The notes under the pieces were generated by a model. That model was not told the origin of the DNA and made no database searches. It saw nothing but the letters and a program-made list of their open reading frames with translations. Position numbers and translations under genes: made by a program. DNA of 64,000 nucleotides from contig NZ_LT900217.1 in the NCBI RefSeq assembly GCF_900199375.1, forward strand, positions 1,178,001 to 1,242,000, given 5' to 3'. Position 1 is the stretch's first letter, and each line of letters opens with the position of its first letter. The stretch comes from Gordonibacter urolithinfaciens. GTDB taxonomy: Bacteria > Actinomycetota > Coriobacteriia > Coriobacteriales > Eggerthellaceae. Positions 6,210 through 39,334 of the stretch are shown in pieces.

Positions 6210-7028
6210 TTGGAGCACCTCACCGACAAAGAGTTCGAACGGGTCTGCACGCACCTTTCTCGCACACTCGGGCTGAACATGCGTTCCAAGCGAGTGTTGC
6301 TCGACTGCCGGCTGTCACGCGAGCGGAATCGCTTGGGGCTGCCCTCGTTCTCGGATTACCTCGACCTTATAGAGTCGGGCACGAATCCCGAGGCCGCCGC
6401 TCGTTTCATCGACCTCGTCACCACCCACTACACCTACTTCCTGCGCGAGCGCAGGCAGTTCGACTTCCTGCGCACCACGGCGTTTCCCGAGCTGGAGGCC
6501 TCGCGACCGCGCCGCACCTGGAACATCCTGTGCGCGGGCTGCTCCACCGGCGAGGAATGCTATACCGTGTCCATGATCGTGGAGGACTACAGGCGCGGAC
6601 GTAACCTCCCACCCGTGCGCGTCACCGGCATAGACGTGTCGGAGCCGGCGCTCGAGGAGGCGCGGCGGGCCGTGTACCCCGCGACGCGCGTGGACAAGGT
6701 GCCCCCTCGCTGGCTGACGTCCTATTTCACGCGCGAGGGCGATGGTTTCGCGGTGGTCGATTCCATCCGCCGGCACGTGTCGTTCGCACGGGCGAACCTG
6801 AGCGACCCGGAGGCGCTCAGGCGCCGCTACGACCTCATCCTCTGCCGCAACGTCATCATCTACTTCGACGAGCCCACGCGCGAGCGGGTGCTGGACACCC
6901 TGCACCGTCATCTGGCGCTTTCGAGCTACCTCATCCTCGGGCACGCGGAGATCGTCCGCGACCGCAAGCGGTTCGCCTACCGGGGCGACTCCATCTACCA
7001 GAAACGATCGGAAGAGACGCATTCATGA
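6210..7028 (+). CDS. cheR: chemotaxis-type glutamate methyltransferase CheR
   Basis: A 272-residue SAM-dependent methyltransferase that would methylate glutamates of the receptor encoded next. The N-terminal CheR helical domain (about 1-75) precedes the catalytic domain with SAM motif [12 protein letters not shown] (about 110-121) and [14 protein letters not shown]. The start appears to be TTG at 6210 with ACGGAG upstream; no ATG or GTG fits better. First gene of a five-gene operon, overlapping the receptor gene as ATGA. No CheB methylesterase is in the window, so adaptation would be one-sided or use a distant partner. Confidence 0.9.
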
Positions 7029-8602
7029 GACCGTCTTTGAAAAACGCGAGCATCAGCCGCATCCTGATGCTTTCCTACGTCACCATCATCGTGCTGTTCG
7101 TGGTGTCTATCGGCGCGTCCATCTTCGGCGTGCACGAGAACTCTTCGATGACCACCGAGTTCTATCAGCGCCCCTACCAGGTGTCGAAGAGCGCCATATC
7201 GCTGCGCAACACGATCGACGAGATGTCGGGCTACCTGGAGCAGTACATCTCCGCCGAGTCTCCCGCCGAAAAGAAACAGTTGCTTTCCAGCATCGACCAG
7301 CTGTCCGCCGAACGCGAAGCCGAGTTCGAGGTCATCTCGTCCAACTTCACGGCCGACCCGAACGCGCTCGCCGAGTTCACCGTCGCGTACGAGGGGCTCG
7401 CGGAGACCCGCAACCAGGTGCTCGAGGCGGCGAAGGCAGGCGACACGGAACGTGCGCACTCGCTCTACGAGCAGAGCTACCTGCCGCAGCGCGAGGTCAC
7501 GCTGGAGCTTTCCGACGGCATCGTCGCCGCTGCCGAGAAGAAGGCCTCCGACTTCGTGCAGAAGACCACCGACGTCGAGATCGCCACGTCGGTGTCCATC
7601 GCGTTGATCGGGCTGCTCACGATCGCGCTCGTGGTGGTCATGTGGCGGCGCATCACACGGGCCATCGCCGAGCCGGTGCGCGAGATCGAGCGGGTCGCCA
7701 AGCGCGTGGCCGCAGGGGACCTCACGGCGAACGCGTCCTGCGCGTCCGAAAACGAGCTGGGCGAGCTGGGCGAGTCCATGAACCGCACGGTGGCGTCGTT
7801 GCGTCTGACGGTGGAGCGCCTGAGCGAGACGGCCGAGCAGGTGGAACGCTCGTCGTCGCAGATGTCCGACAGCTCGCAAACCATCGCTCAGGGCTCGGCC
7901 GAACAGGCCATGTCCATCGAGGAGCTGGCAGTCAACGTCCAAGGCATCACGCAGATGGTGGAGGAGAACAACGAGAGCGTGATCGCAGCCAACGAGAACA
8001 CCTCCGACGTGCTCCAAGCCGTGGAGCGCAGCAACGGCCAGATATCCAAGGCAGTAGAGGTCATCGGCGACATCAAGGTGAGCACGCGCAGCATCTCGCA
8101 GCTGGCCAACTCCATCGAGGACATCTCGTTTCAGACAAACATCCTCGCGCTCAACGCCTCGGTGGAGGCGGCGCGCGCGGGTGACGCGGGCCGTGGATTC
8201 GCCATCGTGGCCGAGGAGATACGACGACTGGCAACCCAGGTGAGCGAGGCATCGCGCGCCGCCGACGAGCTCGCGGTGCGCGCGGCGGAAAGCGTGGAGA
8301 GCGGCAGCGCCCTCATCGAGGACACGTCCGCCAACATGGAGAGCGCCGTCGCGGCTACGGAGGGCGTCAAGGAGATGATGTCGGCCATCGCGCAGGCGTC
8401 CACGCAGCAACTCGAAGCCGTGTCGCAGATCCAGGAGAGCATGGACAGCCTGTCCGACGTGGTGCAGGAGAACTCGGCCGCCTCCGAGGAAAGCGCCGTC
8501 ATCGGCGAGGAGCTTGCCGAGCAAGCTCGCAGCCTCAAGCAGCTTATCGACCGCTTCACGCTCGAGAGGCCCAGCCAGGACGCGGACGGCGGCGCGGCGT
8601 GA
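7025..8602 (+). CDS. methyl-accepting chemotaxis protein (receptor)
   Basis: A 525-residue transmembrane receptor. TM1 spans about residues 13-35, a roughly 145-residue helical extracytoplasmic domain (4HB-like) follows, TM2 is about 182-203, then a HAMP domain and a long coiled-coil signalling domain with the hairpin tip [20 protein letters not shown]. The C-terminus has no recognisable CheR/CheB-tethering pentapeptide. ATG overlaps the cheR stop (ATGA) and the stop overlaps the next GTG (GTGA), so the three are translationally coupled. Ligand unknown. Confidence 0.93.
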
Positions 8603-9204
8603 GGGAGCGTGCCGACGAACCCGCGCGCGACCCCGTCGAGGAGGTCGAGCGCCTTCGCGCGCGAAACGCCGCGCTGAAGGAGCAGCTGGACTCCATGCGC
8701 GGCCTCGCCATGCGCGACCAGCTCACCGGCCTGTTCAGCCGCCATTACCTCACGGACTACCTCGAGGAGAAGATCCAGGAGGCCAGCCGCGAGGCGAACA
8801 CGGTTCTGGCGCTCTGCGACATCGACGACTTCAAGGCCATCAACGACGTGCGCGGACACCAGTCCGGCGACATCGCCATCGTGTGCATCGCCGACATCCT
8901 CGACGACCTCGCCGGAAGCCAGCCCGTCATCCGCTGGGGAGGCGAGGAGCTGCTCGTCGTGCTGTTCTCGTCGCCCGACCACGAGGCGCTGCGCCTGTGC
9001 GATCGCATGCGCGAGGAGGTGGGCTCCTACCGCATCGACGACGGCGAGGGCGAGTTCACCTGCACGCTCACGTTCGGCCTGAGCTCCTACGATCCCAACC
9101 TCACCTTCGCCGAGAACTTCGCGCGGGTCGACCGCGCCCTGTACCACGGCAAGGAAACCGGGAAGAACCGTTGCGTGTTCGCGCGGCCCGACTTGGACGG
9201 ATAG
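8599..9204 (+). CDS. diguanylate cyclase (GGDEF domain, soluble)
   Basis: A 201-residue protein: an N-terminal coiled coil (about 10-35, rich in Glu/Leu/Arg) leading into a GGDEF domain. The active-site signature is WGGEEL and the metal/nucleotide-binding segment [13 protein letters not shown] is intact, so c-di-GMP synthesis is expected. There is no RxxD inhibitory site five residues before GGEEL. GTG start overlaps the receptor stop (GTGA). No membrane segment, so it is presumably controlled through its coiled coil, plausibly by the receptor array encoded in the same operon (inference). Confidence 0.87.
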
Positions 9205-9219
9205 CGGAAGGAGGCCGAG

Positions 9220-10758
9220 ATGGAGCGCGATGAGGAGCTGGTGGTGCAGGTCATGCTCAAGCCCAACTGCGGGCTCGAGAACGTGCGCGCGGCGCTCGTC
9301 GTGCGGCGCATCGCGCCTTTGTGCAGCTCGCTGTCCTTCCACCCGTGCACGGTCAAGAGCGATCCCTCCACCATCTCCTACCTGCGCGACCACGGCCTGT
9401 TCGTCCGCTTCAGCTCGCCCACCCCCGAGAAGGTGCTCATAACCATCAAGGCCTCGTTCTTCGTGGACCGCTTCGCCATCATCGAGGACGCGGACGCCGT
9501 CCCCTCGTTCGCCTCTGCCTCCGACGAGCCCGCAGGCGAGAACAGCCCGGCGATCCCCCTGCGCATCGATTTCGCGAACCGCAGCAGCGTGGACGGGCGC
9601 TACGACGAGCTTTGGAAGCTGCTCGCGCGCCTCGAGGAAGTGCACCGCCAGCTGCGCGCCCGCATCGAGCGCACGCCGCACGACCGCGAGCTCAACACCA
9701 TCTTCTTCACGCATGCCCAGGTCGTGGACGGGCTGCGCACGGCCGTCGCCCGGTCGCGCATCGAGCCGTTCGGAAGGATCGCCCCCTCCCTGCACGCCCT
9801 CGTCGCAGACTACAGCGAGCGTTTCGGCGTGCAGGTCAAGTTCGACATCGCGGACGGGCAGATGGCGCTCGACCAGTCCGTGCTGGCGTCGATGGAGGAG
9901 ATCATCAAACGAGTCATCCGGGCGTGCCTGCGCGACGGCATTGGCAAGCCCGAGGGGCGCAAGGCGGCGGGGAAGCCTCCCTGCGCCACGATGCGCCTCA
10001 CGCTGGAGAGCGACGGCTCCGAGGTGATCTGCCGCATCGAACACGACGGCCACTTGTTCGACGCGCGCCGCATCGGACAGCTGGCCGAGGAGCGCGGCCT
10101 GCTCACCCGCCCTATCGAAGAGTACACCGACGAGGAGATAGGCTCGTTCTTGATGATGCCCGGATTCGCCTCGACGCGCTCGGGCCCGTTCGCCGGCATG
10201 TCCTCCCAGTTCATCGAGATCGGATCCATGCTGTACAACATGGGCGGACGGGGCAAGGTGCGCAACACCGACCACGGCACGCTCGAGATCGTCATGAACT
10301 TCCCCGCGCCGTTCACCGTCATGGAGGCCGCCATCGTGCGCGTCGGCGCAGAGCGCTTCGCCCTGCCCGCGCAGCAGATCGTCCGGTTCGAGGGGCATCA
10401 CCCGGAGCGCCTCGTCGGCGGCTGCGACGCGTCGGGGACGGCCTGCTACGTGGACCGAGACGGCGCGCGCGTCGAGATGCTGAACGGGGCGGGCGCGTCC
10501 ACCCCGTTCAAGGCTGAGAGACCGAGGATCGTGGTGATGCTCGAGGCGCAGGGCGAGCGGCGAGCGCTTGCCGTGGACGAGGTTGACGGCTACGAGCGCG
10601 TATCGGTGTGCCAGCTTCCAGCGCTGCTCAACCGCAGGACGGCGCGCCTCGCCGGCTGCTTCGGGTACGCGTTCCTGCAGGACGGCGCCGCATGCGCCGT
10701 GGTGAGCGCGAGACGCCTGCTGGATTCCGGCTTGGAGGAGGGAGCGCGCCATGCGTGA
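9220..10758 (+). CDS. CheA-like chemosensory protein, no Hpt domain, degenerate ATPase (pseudokinase)
   Basis: A 512-residue protein aligning by pattern with the P2-P3-P4-P5 order of CheA. Residues about 5-92 resemble the P2 domain; about 125-195 is a helical dimerisation-like region (THAQVVDGLRTAVARSR); about 200-370 is the ATPase region; about 375-500 is a CheW-like P5 domain. The P1 phosphotransfer domain with its His is absent. The N box, normally with Asn and His-Gly, reads KRVIRACLRDGIGKP; the G1 DxGxG is reduced to EHDGHLF; the G2 glycines are eroded. It should therefore neither autophosphorylate nor signal to CheY. A scaffolding role linking receptor and cyclase is an inference. ATG has a GGAAGGAGG RBS. 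Confidence 0.8.
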   Translation: MERDEELVVQVMLKPNCGLENVRAALVVRRIAPLCSSLSFHPCTVKSDPSTISYLRDHGLFVRFSSPTPEKVLITIKASFFVDRFAIIEDADAVPSFASASDEPAGENSPAIPLRIDFANRSSVDGRYDELWKLLARLEEVHRQLRARIERTPHDRELNTIFFTHAQVVDGLRTAVARSRIEPFGRIAPSLHALVADYSERFGVQVKFDIADGQMALDQSVLASMEEIIKRVIRACLRDGIGKPEGRKAAGKPPCATMRLTLESDGSEVICRIEHDGHLFDARRIGQLAEERGLLTRPIEEYTDEEIGSFLMMPGFASTRSGPFAGMSSQFIEIGSMLYNMGGRGKVRNTDHGTLEIVMNFPAPFTVMEAAIVRVGAERFALPAQQIVRFEGHHPERLVGGCDASGTACYVDRDGARVEMLNGAGASTPFKAERPRIVVMLEAQGERRALAVDEVDGYERVSVCQLPALLNRRTARLAGCFGYAFLQDGAACAVVSARRLLDSGLEEGARHA

Positions 10759-11194
10759 TCGCGAGCAGCGGCTCCGTTGGATCGAGAAGCTCATCAGCGG
10801 AGGGAGCGAGAGGGCGGCGCGCTCGAACGCCCTCGTCGTGCCCACGCCCGCAGGCGACATGGCCATCGCCTTCGATGCGATCGACGAGGTGGTGCCCGCG
10901 AGCGGCGTGAGGCCCTTCGCCTTCTTGCCGCCCGAGTTCTGCGGCGTGCTGCATCGCGGCGCGGAGCTCGTGCCCGTCGTCGACGCGGGCGGCGGCGCGA
11001 CGGGGCACGTGGTGGTCGTGAAGGCCAAGGGATGCCTCCTGGGCCTCAAGTTCCACGGCACGCCCAGCGTGGCGAACCTGAACGAGGCCGAGCTCGCGTC
11101 GGTGGCCCTTCGCATGGAGCAGCGCTTCGACGGCGAGGGCCTTCCGGTGCTCGACGTGGAGGCCGCCATCGAGGCCCTGCTCGAGCTGGACTGA
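10751..11194 (+). CDS. CheW-like adaptor
   Basis: A 147-residue protein with one CheW-type beta-barrel (about 25-140): VVPTPAGDMAIAFDAIDEVV, then LHRGAELVPVVDA and a closing LPVLDVEAAI strand. The first 25 residues form a basic helix. It overlaps the CheA-like gene by 8 bp and ends the operon. Such adaptors couple receptors to CheA P5 domains; here the only CheA in the window is a predicted pseudokinase. Confidence 0.75.
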   Translation: MRDREQRLRWIEKLISGGSERAARSNALVVPTPAGDMAIAFDAIDEVVPASGVRPFAFLPPEFCGVLHRGAELVPVVDAGGGATGHVVVVKAKGCLLGLKFHGTPSVANLNEAELASVALRMEQRFDGEGLPVLDVEAAIEALLELD

Positions 11195-32022: not shown

Positions 32023-34920
32023 ATGGAGACATCCTCGACAGAACCGATTCGGCCGAACCCCGACAAGCTGCTGCGGGCTATTTCGGCAGATGCGGGCGCA
32101 TGTGCATGCGATAACGAGCAGCGCGGTCGCCTCAAGATATTCTTCGGCTACGCAGCCGGCGTGGGCAAGACCTACGCCATGTTGGAGGCGGCCCATGTGG
32201 CGAAGGACCACGGACGCGACGTGGTGGTGGGCTACATCGAGCCGCATACGCGCCCCGATACGCTCGCCCTACTGGACGGCCTCGAGCAACTGCCCGTACG
32301 CGAGATGCCGTACAAGGGCATCTCGCTGCGCGAGTTCGACGTGGACGCGGCGCTCGCGCGCAAGCCCGGCCTCATCCTCGTGGACGAGCTGGCCCACACG
32401 AACGCCCCCGGCAGCCGCCACGCCAAACGCTACCGCGACGTTGAGGAGCTGTTGCACGCGGGCATCGACGTGTTCACCACCGTGAACGTGCAGCACCTGG
32501 AAAGCCTGAACGACAAGGTGTCCGCCACCACCGAGGTGGTGGTGCAGGAGCGCATCCCCGACCGCATCTTCGATTACGCCTCGTCGGTGGAGCTGGTGGA
32601 CCTGGATCCCGACGACCTCCTTGAACGTCTGGAGGGCGGCAAGATCTACGGCGCCGAGCGCGCCGAGACGGCGCTCGCGAACTTCTTCTCAAAGAAGAAC
32701 CTCGCCTACCTGCGCGAACTGGCGCTGCGCCGCACGGCCGACCGCCTGAACCGCAACCTCGAGCGCGGTCTGGGGCGCGCAGCGGGCGACGCCGGCGATG
32801 ACGTGCTCGTGCACGTGAGCCCCTCCGCCGGCAACGCCACCGTCATTCGCGCCGCGGCGCGCCTGGCCGCCGCCTACCGCGGCACGCTCACGGCGCTGGT
32901 GATGGAGCCCGTCGACGACCAGAAACTCTCCGAGGAAGACGCCCGGGCGCTGCACGCGAACGTGGAGCTGGCCGAGGAGCTGGGCGCGCACGTCGTGACT
33001 GTTTACGGCGGCGATCTGGCTCTCCAGATCGCCCAGTACGCGCTCTCGGGCACCATCTCGAAAATCGTCATCGGCTCGTCCGAGAACCAGCGCAAGCGCG
33101 CACTGCCCAACCTATTCCCACGCGAGTCCGTGGGAAGTCGCCTGGCGAAGCTGTCCTGCACGGCCGACGTCGTGGTCATCGCCGACCGCCACGAGGCCCG
33201 CCCCACGTCCGGCCCGCGCCTGGCCACGCGCTTCAAGCCCACGCGCACCGACTTCGCCGCCGCGTTCTTGGCCCTGCTGGGCGCCACGGTGCTCGGGCTC
33301 GCGTTCCACGAGGCCGGGCTCGCCGGCAGCACCATCCTGGCCGTCTACCTCGTGGCAGTGCTACTAGGTTCGCTCAAGGCCGACAGCTTCTTCTACAGCA
33401 TCGTGGCCTCGCCGCTGGCCGTCATCCTGTTCAACTACTTCTTCCAAACGCCGCGCTTCACCTTGACGGCCTACGGACTGAACTACCCGTTCACGTTCGC
33501 GTTTTTGTTCGTCACGTCCGCCGTGGTGTCGTCGCTCACCATCCGCACGCGCCGCGAGGCCCAGATGAACGCCCGCAAGGCCTATCGTACCGAGGTGCTG
33601 CTGGAAACGGAACACCGCCTGCAGGAGGCCAACGGCGTGGACAGCATCCTGTCCACCACGGCCGAGCAGGTCATCAAGCTGCTGCGCACCACCGTCGTCA
33701 TCTACCAGGTATCCCCCAGCGGCCGGCTGCTCGACCCCAGCCTGTTCTCCTCGGGCAACCCCGACGAGGACGTGACCATGACGTCGCTGGTGAGCGACGA
33801 CGAGCGCGCCGTGGCCGCCTGGGTGGCCGGCAACAACAAGCGCGCCGGCACGGGAACGGGCACGCTCATGAACGCGCGGTGCCTCTACCTGCCCATACGC
33901 GGCAAGGACACCGTGGTGGGCGTGGCCGGTATCGTGCTGGCCGACGAGGACCTGGACGCGTTCGAGAAGAACCTGCTGCTGGTCATGCTGGACGAGTGCG
34001 GCCAGGCCGTGGAGCGCGAGCGCTCGGCCGAGGACGCGCACCGCATCCGCCTGCAAGCCGAGCAGGAGAGCCTGCGCGCGAACCTGCTGCGCAGCATCTC
34101 GCACGACCTACGCACGCCGCTCACCAGCATCTCCGGCGATGCGTCTATTTTGCTGTCGAGTGCCGATGCGCTCACGGACGACAAGAAGCGCGCCATCTAC
34201 ACCGACATCTACGAGGATGCGCTGTGGCTCGTGAACCTCGTGGAGAACCTGCTGGTGGTCACGCGGCTGGACAACGGCACCATGGCGCTCAAAACCGAGC
34301 CGGAGCTGGTGGAGGACGTGATCCGCGAGGCGTTCCACCACCTGAACCGCAAGGCCGCGCTGCACGAATTGCGCGTGCAGGTGGACGACCCGCTGCTCAT
34401 GGCCCAGATGGACGGGCGCCTTATCATGCAGGTCATCATCAACCTGGTGAACAACGCCGTCACTTACACGCCGGAAGGTTCGCGCATCACCGTATCGGCG
34501 CGGCGCGCAGGCCGCGGGCAGCGCCCGGGCACTGCGGGGCTCGTGGCTGTGTCCGTGGCCGATGACGGCCCCGGCATCGAGCCGGCCGACCGCACCGAGA
34601 TATTCACGATGTTCTACAAGGGGAAGAACGTGGGCAGCGATGCGCGACGCGGCATGGGCCTCGGCCTGGCCCTGTGCAAGTCCATCGTGGAGATACACGG
34701 GGGCACCATCGCCGTCGACGCGCTCCCCAAGAGCGAGCGCACCTCTCCCGACCGTCCGGGCACCGTCATCACGTTCACGCTGCCTGCGGTAGAATACGAG
34801 GCGAACCACGCGGAGGCCGAGCAACGTGCGACGGCCGCGACAGAGGGCCGTCCCGCAGCGGATGCCGCGAGGCCGCCCGAGACGACCCGCACCCCGGACG
34901 ACGAAGGAGGAGGCGCATGA
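32023..34920 (+). CDS. kdpD: sensor histidine kinase KdpD (K+/turgor sensing)
   Basis: A 965-residue kinase with complete KdpD order: N-terminal KdpD domain with Walker A FGYAAGVGKT (about 41-50) and LVDELAHTNAPGSRH; USP domain (VIGSSENQRKRAL); DUF4118 membrane block (about 410-510); GAF-like region; HisKA with phosphoacceptor about His694 in SISHDLRTPLTS; HATPase (NNAVTYTPEGS, DDGPGI, GMGLGLAL). It phosphorylates KdpE. No kdpFABC pump genes are in the window. ATG has no RBS and lies at the predicted transcript start. Confidence 0.95.
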   Translation: METSSTEPIRPNPDKLLRAISADAGACACDNEQRGRLKIFFGYAAGVGKTYAMLEAAHVAKDHGRDVVVGYIEPHTRPDTLALLDGLEQLPVREMPYKGISLREFDVDAALARKPGLILVDELAHTNAPGSRHAKRYRDVEELLHAGIDVFTTVNVQHLESLNDKVSATTEVVVQERIPDRIFDYASSVELVDLDPDDLLERLEGGKIYGAERAETALANFFSKKNLAYLRELALRRTADRLNRNLERGLGRAAGDAGDDVLVHVSPSAGNATVIRAAARLAAAYRGTLTALVMEPVDDQKLSEEDARALHANVELAEELGAHVVTVYGGDLALQIAQYALSGTISKIVIGSSENQRKRALPNLFPRESVGSRLAKLSCTADVVVIADRHEARPTSGPRLATRFKPTRTDFAAAFLALLGATVLGLAFHEAGLAGSTILAVYLVAVLLGSLKADSFFYSIVASPLAVILFNYFFQTPRFTLTAYGLNYPFTFAFLFVTSAVVSSLTIRTRREAQMNARKAYRTEVLLETEHRLQEANGVDSILSTTAEQVIKLLRTTVVIYQVSPSGRLLDPSLFSSGNPDEDVTMTSLVSDDERAVAAWVAGNNKRAGTGTGTLMNARCLYLPIRGKDTVVGVAGIVLADEDLDAFEKNLLLVMLDECGQAVERERSAEDAHRIRLQAEQESLRANLLRSISHDLRTPLTSISGDASILLSSADALTDDKKRAIYTDIYEDALWLVNLVENLLVVTRLDNGTMALKTEPELVEDVIREAFHHLNRKAALHELRVQVDDPLLMAQMDGRLIMQVIINLVNNAVTYTPEGSRITVSARRAGRGQRPGTAGLVAVSVADDGPGIEPADRTEIFTMFYKGKNVGSDARRGMGLGLALCKSIVEIHGGTIAVDALPKSERTSPDRPGTVITFTLPAVEYEANHAEAEQRATAATEGRPAADAARPPETTRTPDDEGGGA

Positions 34921-35633
34921 CCGACGCAGCCGAAGGCCGTGGAGCCTTCACCATCCTCATAGTGGAGGATGACAGCGCCGTGAAGAGCCTCATCGCCACG
35001 GCGCTCAAGGTGCAGGGCTACCGCCTGCTCGAAGCGAGCACGGGAGGAGCGGCCCTGCTGGAGGCCACCACGAAGAACCCCGACGTGATCATCCTCGACC
35101 TGGGGCTGCCAGACGCCGACGGCATCGACCTCATCCGCCAGGTGCGCACGTGGTCGCACACCCCCATCATCGTGGTGTCCGCACGCACCGAGGACGCCGA
35201 CAAGGTGGCCGCGCTGGACGCCGGCGCCGACGACTACCTCATCAAGCCGTTCTCGGTGGAGGAGCTGCTGGCGCGGCTGCGCGTGGCCACGCGGCGCTTG
35301 GCGGCGGATGCCGGCGCCGACCGGGACGGCCCCGTCTACGAGAACGGCGACCTGCGCATCGACTACGCCGCCCGCACCGTCACCCTCGCCGGCGAAGAGG
35401 TTCATCTCACCCCCATCGAGTACAAGCTGCTGGCGCTTTTGGCCCGCAACACCGGCAAGGTGCTCACGCACAACGCCATCCTGAAGGAGGTGTGGGGCAA
35501 CGCCCTGGCCAGCGACCTGCCGTCGCTGCGCGTGTTCATGGCCACCCTGCGCAAGAAGATCGAACGCGACCCGGCCCACCCCGCCTACCTCCAAACCCAT
35601 GTGGGCATCGGTTACCGCATGCTGCGGAAGTAG
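34917..35633 (+). CDS. kdpE: response regulator KdpE
   Basis: A 238-residue OmpR-family regulator. Receiver domain with acidic pocket IVEDDS, phosphorylation site Asp61 in IILDLGLPDADG and conserved Lys in DDYLIKPFS; C-terminal winged helix with LTPIEYKLLALL and RVFMATLRKKIERDP. ATG overlaps the kdpD stop (ATGA) and has a GAAGGAGGAGG RBS. It probably acts on the CTTAA repeats at 31669-31720 and 31960-31988 (inference). Confidence 0.95.
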   Translation: MTDAAEGRGAFTILIVEDDSAVKSLIATALKVQGYRLLEASTGGAALLEATTKNPDVIILDLGLPDADGIDLIRQVRTWSHTPIIVVSARTEDADKVAALDAGADDYLIKPFSVEELLARLRVATRRLAADAGADRDGPVYENGDLRIDYAARTVTLAGEEVHLTPIEYKLLALLARNTGKVLTHNAILKEVWGNALASDLPSLRVFMATLRKKIERDPAHPAYLQTHVGIGYRMLRK

Positions 35634-35675: not shown

Positions 35676-37952
35676 TCAGTCTCGGGGCGCACCCTCGTCC
35701 GGTGCGACCGTGTCCAGCAGCCGGTAGAACTCCTCGGGGGGCACGGGGCGCGAGAACACGAAGCCCTGCACCATGTCGCACGCCGTCGTGCGCAGGAACG
35801 CCAGCTGCTTCGGCGTTTCCACGCCCTCCATGACCGTGTCCATGCGCAGCTCCTTGGCCATGGTGATGACCGTGCGCACCACCGTTTCCTCCGTGCCGGG
35901 AAGCGATCCCTCCAGCAGGAAGTCGCGGTCGAGCTTCAGCACGTCGGCGGGCAGGTCCTTCAGCACGTTGAGCGACGACTGGCCCGAGCCGAAGTCGTCG
36001 ATGGCGCAGCGGAACCCGGCGCGGCGCATGCTGTCCATGATGTCGAACATGCCGTGCAGGTCCTCGATGACGATGCTCTCCGTCAGCTCCAGCTCGCACA
36101 GCCCGTCGGGGATGCCGTGCTCGTCCTTGATGCGCACGTACGTGGACAGGAAGTCGGGGCGGTGCAGGTGCAGGCGGGACACGTTCACCGAGATCGGCAC
36201 CACGGGCAGCCCGGCATCCAGGCGTGCACGCAGGTCGCGGCACACGCTCTCGAACACGAACTCGTCGAGCCTCAGGATGAAACCGTTCTGCTCGAACAGC
36301 GGGATGAACTCGTCGGGGCCCACGACGCCCTCGTCGGGACGGCTCCAGCGCACGAGCGCCTCTCCGCCCAGCACGCGCGTGCCCGTCACGTCGTACTTCG
36401 GCTGCACGAGGTGGAAGAACTCGCCGTGCTCCAGCGCGCCCTCCATCGAGCGCTCCAGGTCGGCCCGGCGCAGGAGCGCGTCGCGCATGGGCTTGCTGTA
36501 GGCGCACGGCGTCTCGCCGCGCTTGCGCGATTCGACCTGGGCGATGCGCGCGCGGTCGGTGAGCTCGTTCGCGTCGCGCGCCTCGGGCGCGTCCTCCGAG
36601 CAGCACAGGCCGATGTGCAGGGCAAGCGGCTTCCCGTTGCCCACGATGTCGCGCGCCCGCTCGGCTATGCGCTTGCAAACGTCCAGCGCGTCCTCGCGGC
36701 GCACATACGGAACCAGCAGCTGGAAGTAGTCGGCCGACAGGCGCGCCGCGATGCCGTCCTTCCCCGCCTCCTCGCGCAGGATGGCGGCGAGCTCCCGCAG
36801 CACCTCGTCGCCCCGCGCGTACCCATCCACATCGTTGATGAGCTTGAAGTTGTCTATGTCGATGCACGCCGCGGCCATGCCGCCCCCTGCGCCCCCGCCG
36901 GCCCTGTCGGCCCTCGCGCGCTCCGCCAGCCGCACGTCGCCCTCCAGCGCGAACTTGTCGGCGCTGAACAGCCCGGTGAGGCCATCGAAGAACGCCATGC
37001 ACTCGATCTCCCTGCGGTGCGCACGGCTGCCGCGCCAGTACACCGTCAGCACGATGCCCAGCCCCACGATGATGACCAGGCACAAAAGAAGCGTGGCGTT
37101 GATGATGGCGTTGGCCTGCTCCATGACCACTTCGTTCGGGATGATGGACACCACGTCCCAGCCGTCCGTGCCCTCCAGCGGCGTGTAGCAGAACACGTAC
37201 TCATCGCCCCGGTACGAGAACAGCGCCACGCCGCGCGCGTTCTGCTTGAGCGCAGCGCGGAACGAGTCCACGTCCACCTGGTCGTTGCCCTCGAAGCCCA
37301 CGATGTCGTAGATGCTGGAGAACGTGCGGTTGCTGTCGCGGTGCTGCGAGCGCATGACCACCTCGCCCTCGTCGTTCACCACGTACGAGAAGCCGCTGTC
37401 GTTGTAGAACGACAGCGAGAACCGCTCCTCCACGTCGCCGAGCGGGCGCGCCTTGCGCACGATGCCCGGCGTGCCGTCGGAGAACGTGAAGCGCTCGTAC
37501 ACGCCTATCATGTTGCCGCCCGTGCGCTCGTCCAAAAACGGCTCCAGCACGCCCCGATCGGCGGCCGCGGCGGTCGAGGCCATCTGCTCGTCCGTGAGCC
37601 TCGCAGCGTTGGCGTTGTCCGTGCGGTACACCGCGCCCGTGTTCAGGTCGACGCACACGTACACCGTGCCGTCGTCATCCATCCCGAACAGCGCCAGCTT
37701 CTCGATCAAGCGGTCCTCGTCGTCGTGGCGCTGCACGGAAAGCTCGGCCGCGAGCAGGTCGAGCGTGTCCAGGTCCTTCTCGAAGTAGGTGTCCAGCGCA
37801 TGCTGGCCCTGCGCCGTCACCTCCAGCACGTCGGTCACGGACTTCTCCCACAGCGAGTCCTGCACGAAGCGCGCGAACAGCACCGTGCCGATGATCACGG
37901 CCACGGACGCCGCCGCCACGAGGATCGAGATGAGCGTCTTGCGCGACTTCAT
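35676..37952 (-). CDS. membrane c-di-GMP phosphodiesterase (degenerate GGDEF, intact EAL)
   Basis: A 758-residue protein: TM1 about 7-27, a large extracytoplasmic sensor (about 30-290, Cache-like FYNDSGFSYVVNDEGEVV), TM2 about 300-322, GGDEF-type domain and EAL domain. The GGDEF motif has decayed to LSADYF, so no cyclase activity is expected. The EAL domain keeps GGEALVRW, ISVNVSR, ELELTES, AIDDFGSG, LKLDRDF and VMEGVET, all key metal and catalytic positions, so c-di-GMP hydrolysis is likely. Its start overlaps the stop of the binding-protein gene by one base (TGATG), implying a ligand-sensing pair. Confidence 0.9.
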   Translation of the reverse strand: MKSRKTLISILVAAASVAVIIGTVLFARFVQDSLWEKSVTDVLEVTAQGQHALDTYFEKDLDTLDLLAAELSVQRHDDEDRLIEKLALFGMDDDGTVYVCVDLNTGAVYRTDNANAARLTDEQMASTAAAADRGVLEPFLDERTGGNMIGVYERFTFSDGTPGIVRKARPLGDVEERFSLSFYNDSGFSYVVNDEGEVVMRSQHRDSNRTFSSIYDIVGFEGNDQVDVDSFRAALKQNARGVALFSYRGDEYVFCYTPLEGTDGWDVVSIIPNEVVMEQANAIINATLLLCLVIIVGLGIVLTVYWRGSRAHRREIECMAFFDGLTGLFSADKFALEGDVRLAERARADRAGGGAGGGMAAACIDIDNFKLINDVDGYARGDEVLRELAAILREEAGKDGIAARLSADYFQLLVPYVRREDALDVCKRIAERARDIVGNGKPLALHIGLCCSEDAPEARDANELTDRARIAQVESRKRGETPCAYSKPMRDALLRRADLERSMEGALEHGEFFHLVQPKYDVTGTRVLGGEALVRWSRPDEGVVGPDEFIPLFEQNGFILRLDEFVFESVCRDLRARLDAGLPVVPISVNVSRLHLHRPDFLSTYVRIKDEHGIPDGLCELELTESIVIEDLHGMFDIMDSMRRAGFRCAIDDFGSGQSSLNVLKDLPADVLKLDRDFLLEGSLPGTEETVVRTVITMAKELRMDTVMEGVETPKQLAFLRTTACDMVQGFVFSRPVPPEEFYRLLDTVAPDEGAPRD

Positions 37953-39334
37953 CAGGACGCATCCGCCCCCTCGGCCAGCAGGCTGCGCAGCTGGTCCTCG
38001 GCTTGGGCGGCCGTCGCGCCCTCGAGCAGGGACACCACGCTCTGGCGCAGCGCGCCCCAGACGGGTAGGAGGATGTTGTCGTCCGAGCCCACGACCGCGC
38101 CCGCGGCGAACGCCCCGGCCAGCGGCTGCAGCGAGGCGTCGTCGGGGGCGGCGTTGCCCTCCAGCGGGCTGAACGAGCACTGGCTGTTCGCGAAGCGCTC
38201 GATGGCGGACGGCTGGGTGAGGAAGGCCGCGAACTCCTTGGCCTCTTCGACATGGGCGCCGTTCGCGTTCACGCTCACCCGCGTGTCGACGTTGACCACG
38301 AGCACGGGCCGGTCTTCGAGGACCGGATAGGGATGCACCTCGTACGCCAGGTCCGGCGCCATGTCGTGCACGCGCACCGAGGCCCAGGCGCCCGTGAGCA
38401 TGAACGGGTAGCTGCCGGTGGCGAACTGGTCCAGGTCGTCGGAGGTCTTCTCCGTTTCCAGGGCCATGCCCGCGTCCACGCAGCCGCGCTTAACGATGCG
38501 CTCCACCAGCTCCAGGCCGGGGCGCAGCTGAGCGGCCAGCGCATCGGGATCGGCGCTCAGGGTGGCGACGCGCTCGCGCACGTTGTCGGCGGCGTACACC
38601 TCCGCCATGCCCCGCGCGATGGCGAGCGTCTTGAGCGAGATGTCGTTGTTCGCCACGAGCGGCGTGACGCCTTCGGCGAGGAACGCGTCGCAGGCGCGCT
38701 CGAACTCCGCCAGCGTGCGCGGTGCGTCGATGCCGTGCGCGGCCAGCAGGCCGGTGTTGCAGTACAGGCCGAACGCGGAGATGGACGTCGGCACGTACAG
38801 GATAGTGCCCTCGGCATCCATCTGGTCAAAGGCCAGCCTGCTGAACGTGGAGATGGTGGGCAGGCCGGCCAAGTCGGCCAGGTAGCCCTTCTTCTCGAAC
38901 GACAGCGCCGTGTCATGGTCGATCATGAACACGTCGTCGCCGGTGCCGGAATCGAGGCGCTTCACAAGCGCCTCGTAGTAAGGCCTGCTCTTGATACCCT
39001 CGTAGGACACGGACACGTTCGGATGGGCATCCATGAAGTCGCGCAGGATGTCCTCGATGGCCATGACGTTGATGGACTCGTACTTGAAGCCGAAGAACGT
39101 GAGCCGGGTGTCGACCTCCACGTCGGCCGTCTCGCCGACGACTATGTTCTTGCTGGTGGAGCAGCCGGGAAGCGCGAAGGGGGAGAAGGCCGTCGCCAAT
39201 CCGACAGCCGACACGGCCAGGAAGCGGCGGCGCGTGAGCGGCAAGGCAGAGCCGGTCTCGGCGGGCGCTTCCGCGCGGAAGGCGGTGCCCTGCGAGGGCA
39301 AGGTTCCGTGTTCGTTGCTCGGTGTATGCGTCAA
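37952..39334 (-). CDS. Tat-type lipoprotein, extracellular solute-binding protein (family 1-like)
   Basis: A periplasmic-binding-fold protein of about 460 residues. The signal has a twin-arginine motif (LTRRRFLAVSA) and lipobox LPGC. The mature region matches sugar-type binding proteins: FRDFMDAHPNVSVSYEG-like strand, DDVFMIDHD, LYVPTSISAFGLYCNTGLL and FMLTGAWA. The start is uncertain: TTG 39334 with ACGGGGA upstream is preferred over more distal GTG/ATG codons. No ABC permease or ATPase is nearby; instead it is coupled to the EAL phosphodiesterase, so it may present ligand to that sensor. Confidence 0.82.
   Translation of the reverse strand: MTHTPSNEHGTLPSQGTAFRAEAPAETGSALPLTRRRFLAVSAVGLATAFSPFALPGCSTSKNIVVGETADVEVDTRLTFFGFKYESINVMAIEDILRDFMDAHPNVSVSYEGIKSRPYYEALVKRLDSGTGDDVFMIDHDTALSFEKKGYLADLAGLPTISTFSRLAFDQMDAEGTILYVPTSISAFGLYCNTGLLAAHGIDAPRTLAEFERACDAFLAEGVTPLVANNDISLKTLAIARGMAEVYAADNVRERVATLSADPDALAAQLRPGLELVERIVKRGCVDAGMALETEKTSDDLDQFATGSYPFMLTGAWASVRVHDMAPDLAYEVHPYPVLEDRPVLVVNVDTRVSVNANGAHVEEAKEFAAFLTQPSAIERFANSQCSFSPLEGNAAPDDASLQPLAGAFAAGAVVGSDDNILLPVWGALRQSVVSLLEGATAAQAEDQLRSLLAEGADAS

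Follow-up and report, generated by a model that had tools for sequence, protein, structure and literature searches.

How can a chemosensory gene set have an output when its CheA-like protein lacks the motifs of a kinase and neither CheY nor CheB accompanies it? The question is raised by five genes in a stretch of 64,000 nucleotides (nt) from Gordonibacter urolithinfaciens (contig NZ_LT900217.1, positions 1,178,001 to 1,242,000), here called the window, which is part of a single 3.29-Mb contig (positions below are those of the window, and "own genome" is the genome to which it belongs). The genes lie head to tail on the + strand from 6210 to 11194 and encode, in that order, a CheR-type methyltransferase, a methyl-accepting chemoreceptor (MCP), a GGDEF protein, a CheA-like protein, and a CheW-like adaptor. 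On balance, we favor a kinase-free chemosensory array that would set cyclic di-GMP (c-di-GMP) by docking a diguanylate cyclase and controlling it by contact. A narrower version is put forward more tentatively, at a little short of even chances: the array would have no phosphotransfer at all, and the P2 domain of the dead CheA, which in CheA docks CheY, would now dock the cyclase and so let the array steer it directly. A preliminary description of the locus had proposed control by contact rather than by phosphotransfer; this interpretation is partly supported, since its premises hold, several of them more strongly than first stated, and the step "by contact" is one that we infer.

Organization and conservation of the operon

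All five open reading frames were located, packed with three overlaps as the preliminary description had it. The cheR gene (6210..7028, +; 272 amino acids, TTG start), with Pfam matches to CheR (5e-49) and CheR_N (1.8e-9), overlaps by 4 nt the gene of the transmembrane receptor (7025..8602, +; 525 amino acids), which in turn overlaps by 4 nt that of the stand-alone diguanylate cyclase (8599..9204, +; 201 amino acids, GTG start; GGDEF 9.4e-32 in Pfam). After a gap of 15 nt comes the CheA-like gene (9220..10758, +; 512 amino acids), overlapping by 8 nt the gene of the CheW-like adaptor (10751..11194, +; 147 amino acids).

A family search covered 119 genomes from 48 genera. The CheA-like protein occurs in 10 of these genomes (5 of the 48 genera), own genome included, and the receptor domain is found in the same 10, in single copy in each. 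The synteny proposed for a search, CheR-MCP-GGDEF-CheA(no Hpt)-CheW, is thus present in 10/119 genomes of the family, with the five genes in identical order in every carrier. The 4-nt overlap between cheR and the receptor gene is kept in nine carriers, and an overlap of 4–14 nt between the CheA-like and CheW-like genes in all ten. In all five genes, conservation is lowest at third codon positions, and the NG86 ratios of nonsynonymous to synonymous substitution rates (dN/dS) have medians of 0.26–0.44, with dS near saturation. The order in 10/10 carriers, the codon-position pattern, and the dN/dS values indicate that the operon is more than a chance association. The flanking genes, among the flanks listed, differ between carriers.

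Left out of the conservation and dN/dS counts were cheR of two carriers and the CheA-like gene of a third. CheR is intact in eight carriers; its frame is broken in G031 and its N-terminal half is missing in G066. The frame of the CheA-like gene is broken in G105, which, like G075, is a carrier of the same genus as the window; the assembly of G105 has a completeness of 82%, and the break is perhaps a sequencing error.

In the receptor, Pfam recognizes a 4HB_MCP_1 sensor, flanked by hydrophobic stretches at residues ∼7–39 and 183–211, then HAMP and the signaling hairpin (MCPsignal, 1.1e-30). The tip of the hairpin (residues 360–400; 8102..8224, +) corresponds to the region through which MCPs make array contacts. 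It shows a mean pairwise identity of 93.7% among the ten homologues, with 34 of 41 columns invariant. The receptors of G031 (L027, 4630-6345) and G066 (L030) carry an extra stretch of ∼45 residues, located after the first HAMP and ahead of the signaling hairpin, and in G031 this stretch matches HAMP_2. The CheW-like protein matches Pfam PF01584 at 4.1e-4, below the cut-off; nine of ten homologues match that profile at E ≤ 0.1 (best, 7.7e-5).

A CheA-like protein without kinase motifs that keeps P2

By its sequence, the fourth gene is clearly derived from CheA: the best phmmer match to solved CheAs reaches 5.2e-20, and a CheW domain is found at the C-terminal end (9.3e-6 in Pfam). The protein is laid out as P2-P3-P4-P5, without P1. 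As reference for the motifs, four canonical CheAs from other orders of the class were aligned with the ten homologues. In this alignment, P1 is absent in 10/10. In the P4-like region (residues 181–362; 9760..10305, +), a degenerate ATP-binding domain, the asparagine of the N box is replaced by A, L, S, F, V, or M in 10/10, and the G1 box DDGxG has become HDGxx in nine and HNGxx in one. The G2 pattern GRGVG is lost in the nine readable homologues, with at most the first glycine left in three (in G105 the frame breaks at G2). The three boxes are kept in 4/4 canonical CheAs. In the nine full-length members, Pfam finds CheW and P2 and, at E ≤ 1, no Hpt, H-kinase_dim, or HATPase_c. The preliminary description had held that the protein is not a kinase, and judged by these motifs it cannot be a normal one; they likewise point to a loss of ATP binding. 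A full-length AlphaFold model (two sequences; mean pLDDT 42.6) supports no claim.

The dead CheA nevertheless keeps its P2 domain (residues 5–92; 9232..9495, +), a feature missed in the preliminary description. Residues 1–95 match Pfam P2 in all ten members (best, 5.4e-6; in the window, 22.6 bits vs. a cut-off of 23). An AlphaFold2 prediction of P2 from three sequences gives a best model of five with pLDDT 88.8 and pTM 0.79 (the others, 87.8, 75.4, 43.0, and 40.0). When this model was compared with 350,542 PDB chains, Foldseek ranked first 1u0s_A (E 8.9e-4), the P2 domain of a Thermotoga CheA solved with CheY; no other chain reached E ≤ 0.001. The VIA-align superposition on 1u0s_A has Z 9.2 (root-mean-square deviation 2.4, 82 residues aligned), and the next row has Z 8.3. 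Other ferredoxin-like folds score only modestly lower; fold, sequence, and position within CheA agree. Among nine sequences, conservation within the protein is highest in P2, with a mean pairwise identity of 62.4%, followed by P4 (52.7%), P3 (44.5%), and P5 (43.2%).

In a survey of thousands of CheAs, P1, P3, P4, and P5 form a core present in all, and P2 is the domain most often missing (PMC10782961); here the situation is reversed, with P2 kept and P1 and the P4 function lost. The P2 domain of CheA docks CheY and CheB (PMC8552884). A docking domain that is left without these clients and yet remains better conserved than the rest of the protein suggests a new client. Sequence and model together would thereby offer the idea of contact a concrete candidate site.

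The diguanylate cyclase

The motifs DxDxFK (as CDIDDFK), ND (as IND), GHxxGD, RWGGEE[LM], and KETGKN, to which catalytic, metal-binding, and substrate-binding roles are assigned, are present in the ten operon cyclases. In the active-site loop (GGEEL in the window; 8938..8952, +) the fifth letter is L in nine, M in one, and F in none. Apart from CheR, no other enzyme of the operon has intact motifs, in agreement with the earlier proposal that the cyclase with its intact GGEEL is the only enzyme that could give an output.

The GGDEF domain, with a mean pairwise identity of 76.2%, begins at residue 37, and Pfam finds neither a receiver (REC) nor a sensor domain in the 201 residues. The ∼34 residues that precede it have no Pfam match; from the alignment, examined by eye, they may form a short helix or coiled-coil-like stalk (8629..8700, +), the coiled coil being putative. 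This N-terminal part, to which the preliminary description gave weight, is poorly conserved (41.2%). The inhibitory I-site RxxD is absent from the motif alignment in 10/10, at what we presume to be its position. With no REC, I-site, or sensor, control would have to come from a partner, or there would be none. In NCBIfam, the nearest profiles are PRK09894 (6.1e-40) and SiaD (1.4e-37), both below their cut-offs; the nearest solved structures are those of DgcZ/YdeH (DgcZ, 3.3e-25), and chain 7e6g, also among the matches, is presumably SiaD.

In the own genome, there are 28 GGDEF domains. A tree was made of the ten operon cyclases, four cyclases from che clusters, and 25 paralogous domains (two of the 27 other domains, being partial, were omitted). 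The operon cyclases form one clade (printed support 78), apart from the 25 paralogous domains and adjoining L016, a paralogue from the same genome; the deep nodes are weak. This bears on another explanation, which we consider unlikely, namely, that the cyclase is constitutive or controlled in some other way and merely co-expressed, the role of the array being something else. Operon membership is, indeed, the sole link of the array to the cyclase, the genome has many other GGDEF domains, there is no I-site for feedback, and the N-terminal stalk is poorly conserved. On the other hand, the gene sits between those of the receptor and of CheA in 10/10 carriers, CheR is the only other operon enzyme with intact motifs, and the clade sets these cyclases apart from 25 other GGDEF domains of the genome.

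Two observations concern c-di-GMP more widely. A GGDEF-EAL protein (35676-38180, −; EAL 1.2e-58, with a weak dCache match) is encoded ∼25 kb from the operon and is a possible partner for c-di-GMP turnover. PilZ, considered as a c-di-GMP target, has no match in the ten carrier genomes, despite the 28 GGDEF domains of the own genome; these bacteria may thus bind c-di-GMP with receptors of a different type.

Chemosensory and phosphorelay components elsewhere in the genomes

The genome-wide absences reported here rest on profile searches, and stand-alone receivers were examined in the own genome. There, MCPsignal is matched once, in the operon receptor, and CheW once at E ≤ 0.001, within the CheA-like gene. 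CheB has no match in the ten carrier genomes, and FlhA is over the cut-off in none of them (a weak FlhA-like match in G066, 1.6e-4, is below the cut-off and was not counted as flagellar). The operon has no CheY, and none of the 32 receiver domains in the own genome is a stand-alone CheY: in 26, the protein continues for 97 residues or more past the domain, and the six C-terminal ones are parts of hybrid kinases that also contain HisKA and HATPase_c. What had been said of the locus, that it has no CheY, CheB, or flagellar gene, can therefore be extended to CheB and FlhA in the ten genomes and to stand-alone receivers (0/32) in the own genome. Nor did a search of the remaining genome yield a complete CheA/CheY set, or any other CheA, MCP, or CheB.

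Hpt domains number two or three per carrier (24 in all, two of them in the own genome), none within the retrieved operon regions, and receiver domains 28–45 per carrier. Phosphate could, then, still flow through a histidine kinase or Hpt protein acting in trans, with P2 docking the receiver of some other response regulator. The docking of CheY and CheB by P2 in ordinary CheAs (PMC8552884) and the 32 receiver and two Hpt domains of the own genome would suit such a scheme. Split CheAs are known as well: CheA4 of Rhodobacter sphaeroides, without P1, works with CheA3 (PMC10782961). Yet CheA4 is a working kinase, whereas here the N and G1 boxes are lost in 10/10 and G2 in 9/9 readable homologues. 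Moreover, the 32 receivers of the own genome are all within larger proteins, there is no CheB, and 0/24 Hpt matches fall in the retrieved operon regions. We regard phosphate flow in trans as quite improbable.

Relation to canonical che clusters

A search of the class (396 genomes, at most three candidates scored per genome) gave matches to the CheA-like protein in 76 genomes. The matches within Eggerthellaceae are the ten carriers; those in the other 66 genomes, 65 of them outside the order, are more distant. In two annotated relatives from other orders of the class (L060 and L062), the arrangement is CheR-MCP-CheW-CheY-CheB-CheA(P1 to P5)-CheC-CheD, after which comes a GAF-GGDEF gene. Like the operon, such a cluster has CheR, an MCP, a CheA with P2, CheW, and a GGDEF gene, here placed behind the cluster. 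Unlike the operon, it has a complete kinase with P1, as well as CheY, CheB, CheC, and CheD, and its GGDEF protein carries GAF domains. A protein with peptidoglycan-binding domains is encoded close to both clusters (L060, 3908-4816; L062, 13531-14604).

The CheA-like protein probably descends from a cluster of this canonical type. In the simplest story, P1, ATP binding, CheY, CheB, CheC, and CheD would have been lost and a cyclase placed between receptor and CheA. Descent of that cyclase from the GAF-GGDEF gene behind the canonical cluster was considered. The tree does not join them, che-cluster and operon cyclases not being sisters; in BLAST against the operon cyclase, the che-cluster genes score 84.3, 83.6, 79.3, and 70.9 bits vs. 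73.2 for the best of eight paralogues. Because the deep nodes are weak, this descent is not disproved.

The same comparison could be taken to mean that the operon is the relic of an ordinary chemotaxis operon, decaying after loss of the flagella, with the cyclase as a bystander. The full gene set of the two relatives, with its GAF-GGDEF gene behind, the missing CheY, CheB, CheC, and CheD, the vanished kinase motifs, and the broken genes (CheR in 2/10 carriers, the CheA-like frame in 1/10) would fit this reading. Decay, however, would not favor P2 above the rest of CheA, and the gene order is kept across five genera, with dN/dS medians of 0.26–0.44. The receptor tip (93.7%) and the cyclase domain (76.2%) also stay highly identical, and the GGDEF gene is within the operon in 10/10. 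We consider a relic very unlikely.

A proposed mechanism and comparison with known systems

In the kinase-free array that we favor, the single receptor would sense an extracellular ligand with its four-helix bundle and would form, together with the CheW-like protein and P5 of the dead CheA, the usual base plate of receptors and adaptors. The dead CheA, which would neither bind ATP nor transfer phosphate, would act as a dimeric scaffold, its P2 arm holding the stand-alone cyclase. A change of the array driven by the ligand would then alter the packing or dimerization of the cyclase and, hence, its activity, and methylation by CheR would adjust the receptor, with no CheB taking part. The assembly of the array, the recruitment of the cyclase by P2 or the receptor, the direction in which control runs, and a downstream target are all steps that we infer.

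Several points weigh against this proposal. The link of cyclase to array is operon membership, and the cyclase could be merely co-transcribed. Conservation is low in the stalk of the cyclase (residues 1–34, 41.2% mean identity), in P5 of the CheA-like protein (43.2%), and in the CheW-like protein (45.0%), which would be unexpected if docking by the stalk or building of the array were the tightest constraints. Two of the five P2 models are poor (pLDDT 43.0 and 40.0), and hhalign of P2 against three canonical P2 domains is weak (E 0.0033, probability 9.8%; a fourth canonical sequence, L063, had been excluded for its poor alignment). Methylation by CheR would have no CheB to reverse it, none having been found in the carriers, and may be dispensable, since CheR is broken in 2/10. 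Finally, with two or three Hpt matches and 28–45 receiver domains per carrier, another phosphorelay could touch the array.

All chemosensory arrays known to us end in phosphate transfer from CheA. If the proposal is true, receptor lattices can act as allosteric platforms for enzymes of other types, and Gordonibacter-type bacteria have a receptor that feeds into c-di-GMP. With five genes and one receptor per genome, the system is small enough for simple interaction and activity assays. Among the literature matches listed, which cover few subscription journals, there is no kinase-dead or pseudokinase CheA with a c-di-GMP output and no chemosensory system described for the group of Gordonibacter; nor do they include a paper that links a receptor to c-di-GMP in such bacteria.

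The closest known parallel in components is the Wsp system (WspA-F and WspR; of ACF type, in Pseudomonas), in which a receptor controls c-di-GMP and which shares with the operon a 4HB_MCP_1 receptor, CheW-type adaptors, a methyltransferase, and a GGDEF output (PMC8846402, PMC8552884). There, however, the kinase WspE phosphorylates the REC domain of WspR, and a methylesterase, WspF, is present (PMC8846402, PMC8552884), whereas in the operon the kinase motifs are lost and there is neither REC nor CheB. In addition, WspE is reported to have no significant similarity to P2 or P3 (PMC8552884), whereas the CheA-like protein keeps P2. As outlined in a review, the minimal chemosensory set has six proteins, including CheA, CheB, and CheY (PMC8846402); of these three, CheB and CheY are missing from the operon, and its CheA lacks the kinase motifs.

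In Pseudomonas aeruginosa, Pch is likewise a c-di-GMP enzyme; it forms a complex with CheA or one of the partners of CheA, through which it is controlled (PMC3861689). It is, however, a phosphodiesterase, which degrades c-di-GMP, requires phosphorylation of histidine 49 of CheA, and works with a full chemotaxis array (PMC3861689). The R. sphaeroides pair offers another likeness, with P1 missing from CheA4 and the kinase domain inside CheA3 judged non-functional; unlike the operon protein, the two jointly still move phosphate, through CheA4 and an Hpt domain (PMC10782961). DivL of Caulobacter is a dead histidine kinase retained as a signaling scaffold; it differs in tuning an active kinase, CckA, outside chemoreceptor arrays (PMC12189002, PMC12471899). 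In the operon, no active kinase partner was identified.

Among the nearest matches of the operon cyclase, SiaD and DgcZ are also GGDEF enzymes without REC. SiaD is controlled by a partner protein, SiaC, and DgcZ by zinc through its own zinc-binding sensor. We know of neither being held by a chemoreceptor array.

Neighboring features of the window

A putative aldehyde dehydrogenase gene, assigned by eye from the sequence, was considered as a part of the operon and set aside. It is directly upstream in only 6/10 carriers, lies downstream in L029, and was not seen in the retrieved flanks of three carriers; with such varying placement, it is a neighbor and not part of the system. A search of the window with Rfam gave nothing at the gathering score, and a simple scan of the + strand detected neither a sigma-70-like promoter nor a terminator-like site. 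Farther downstream, at 32023-35633 (+), lie the genes of a KdpD sensor kinase (KdpD domain, 4.2e-93) and, after it, of a receiver protein that has a Trans_reg_C domain and is likely KdpE.

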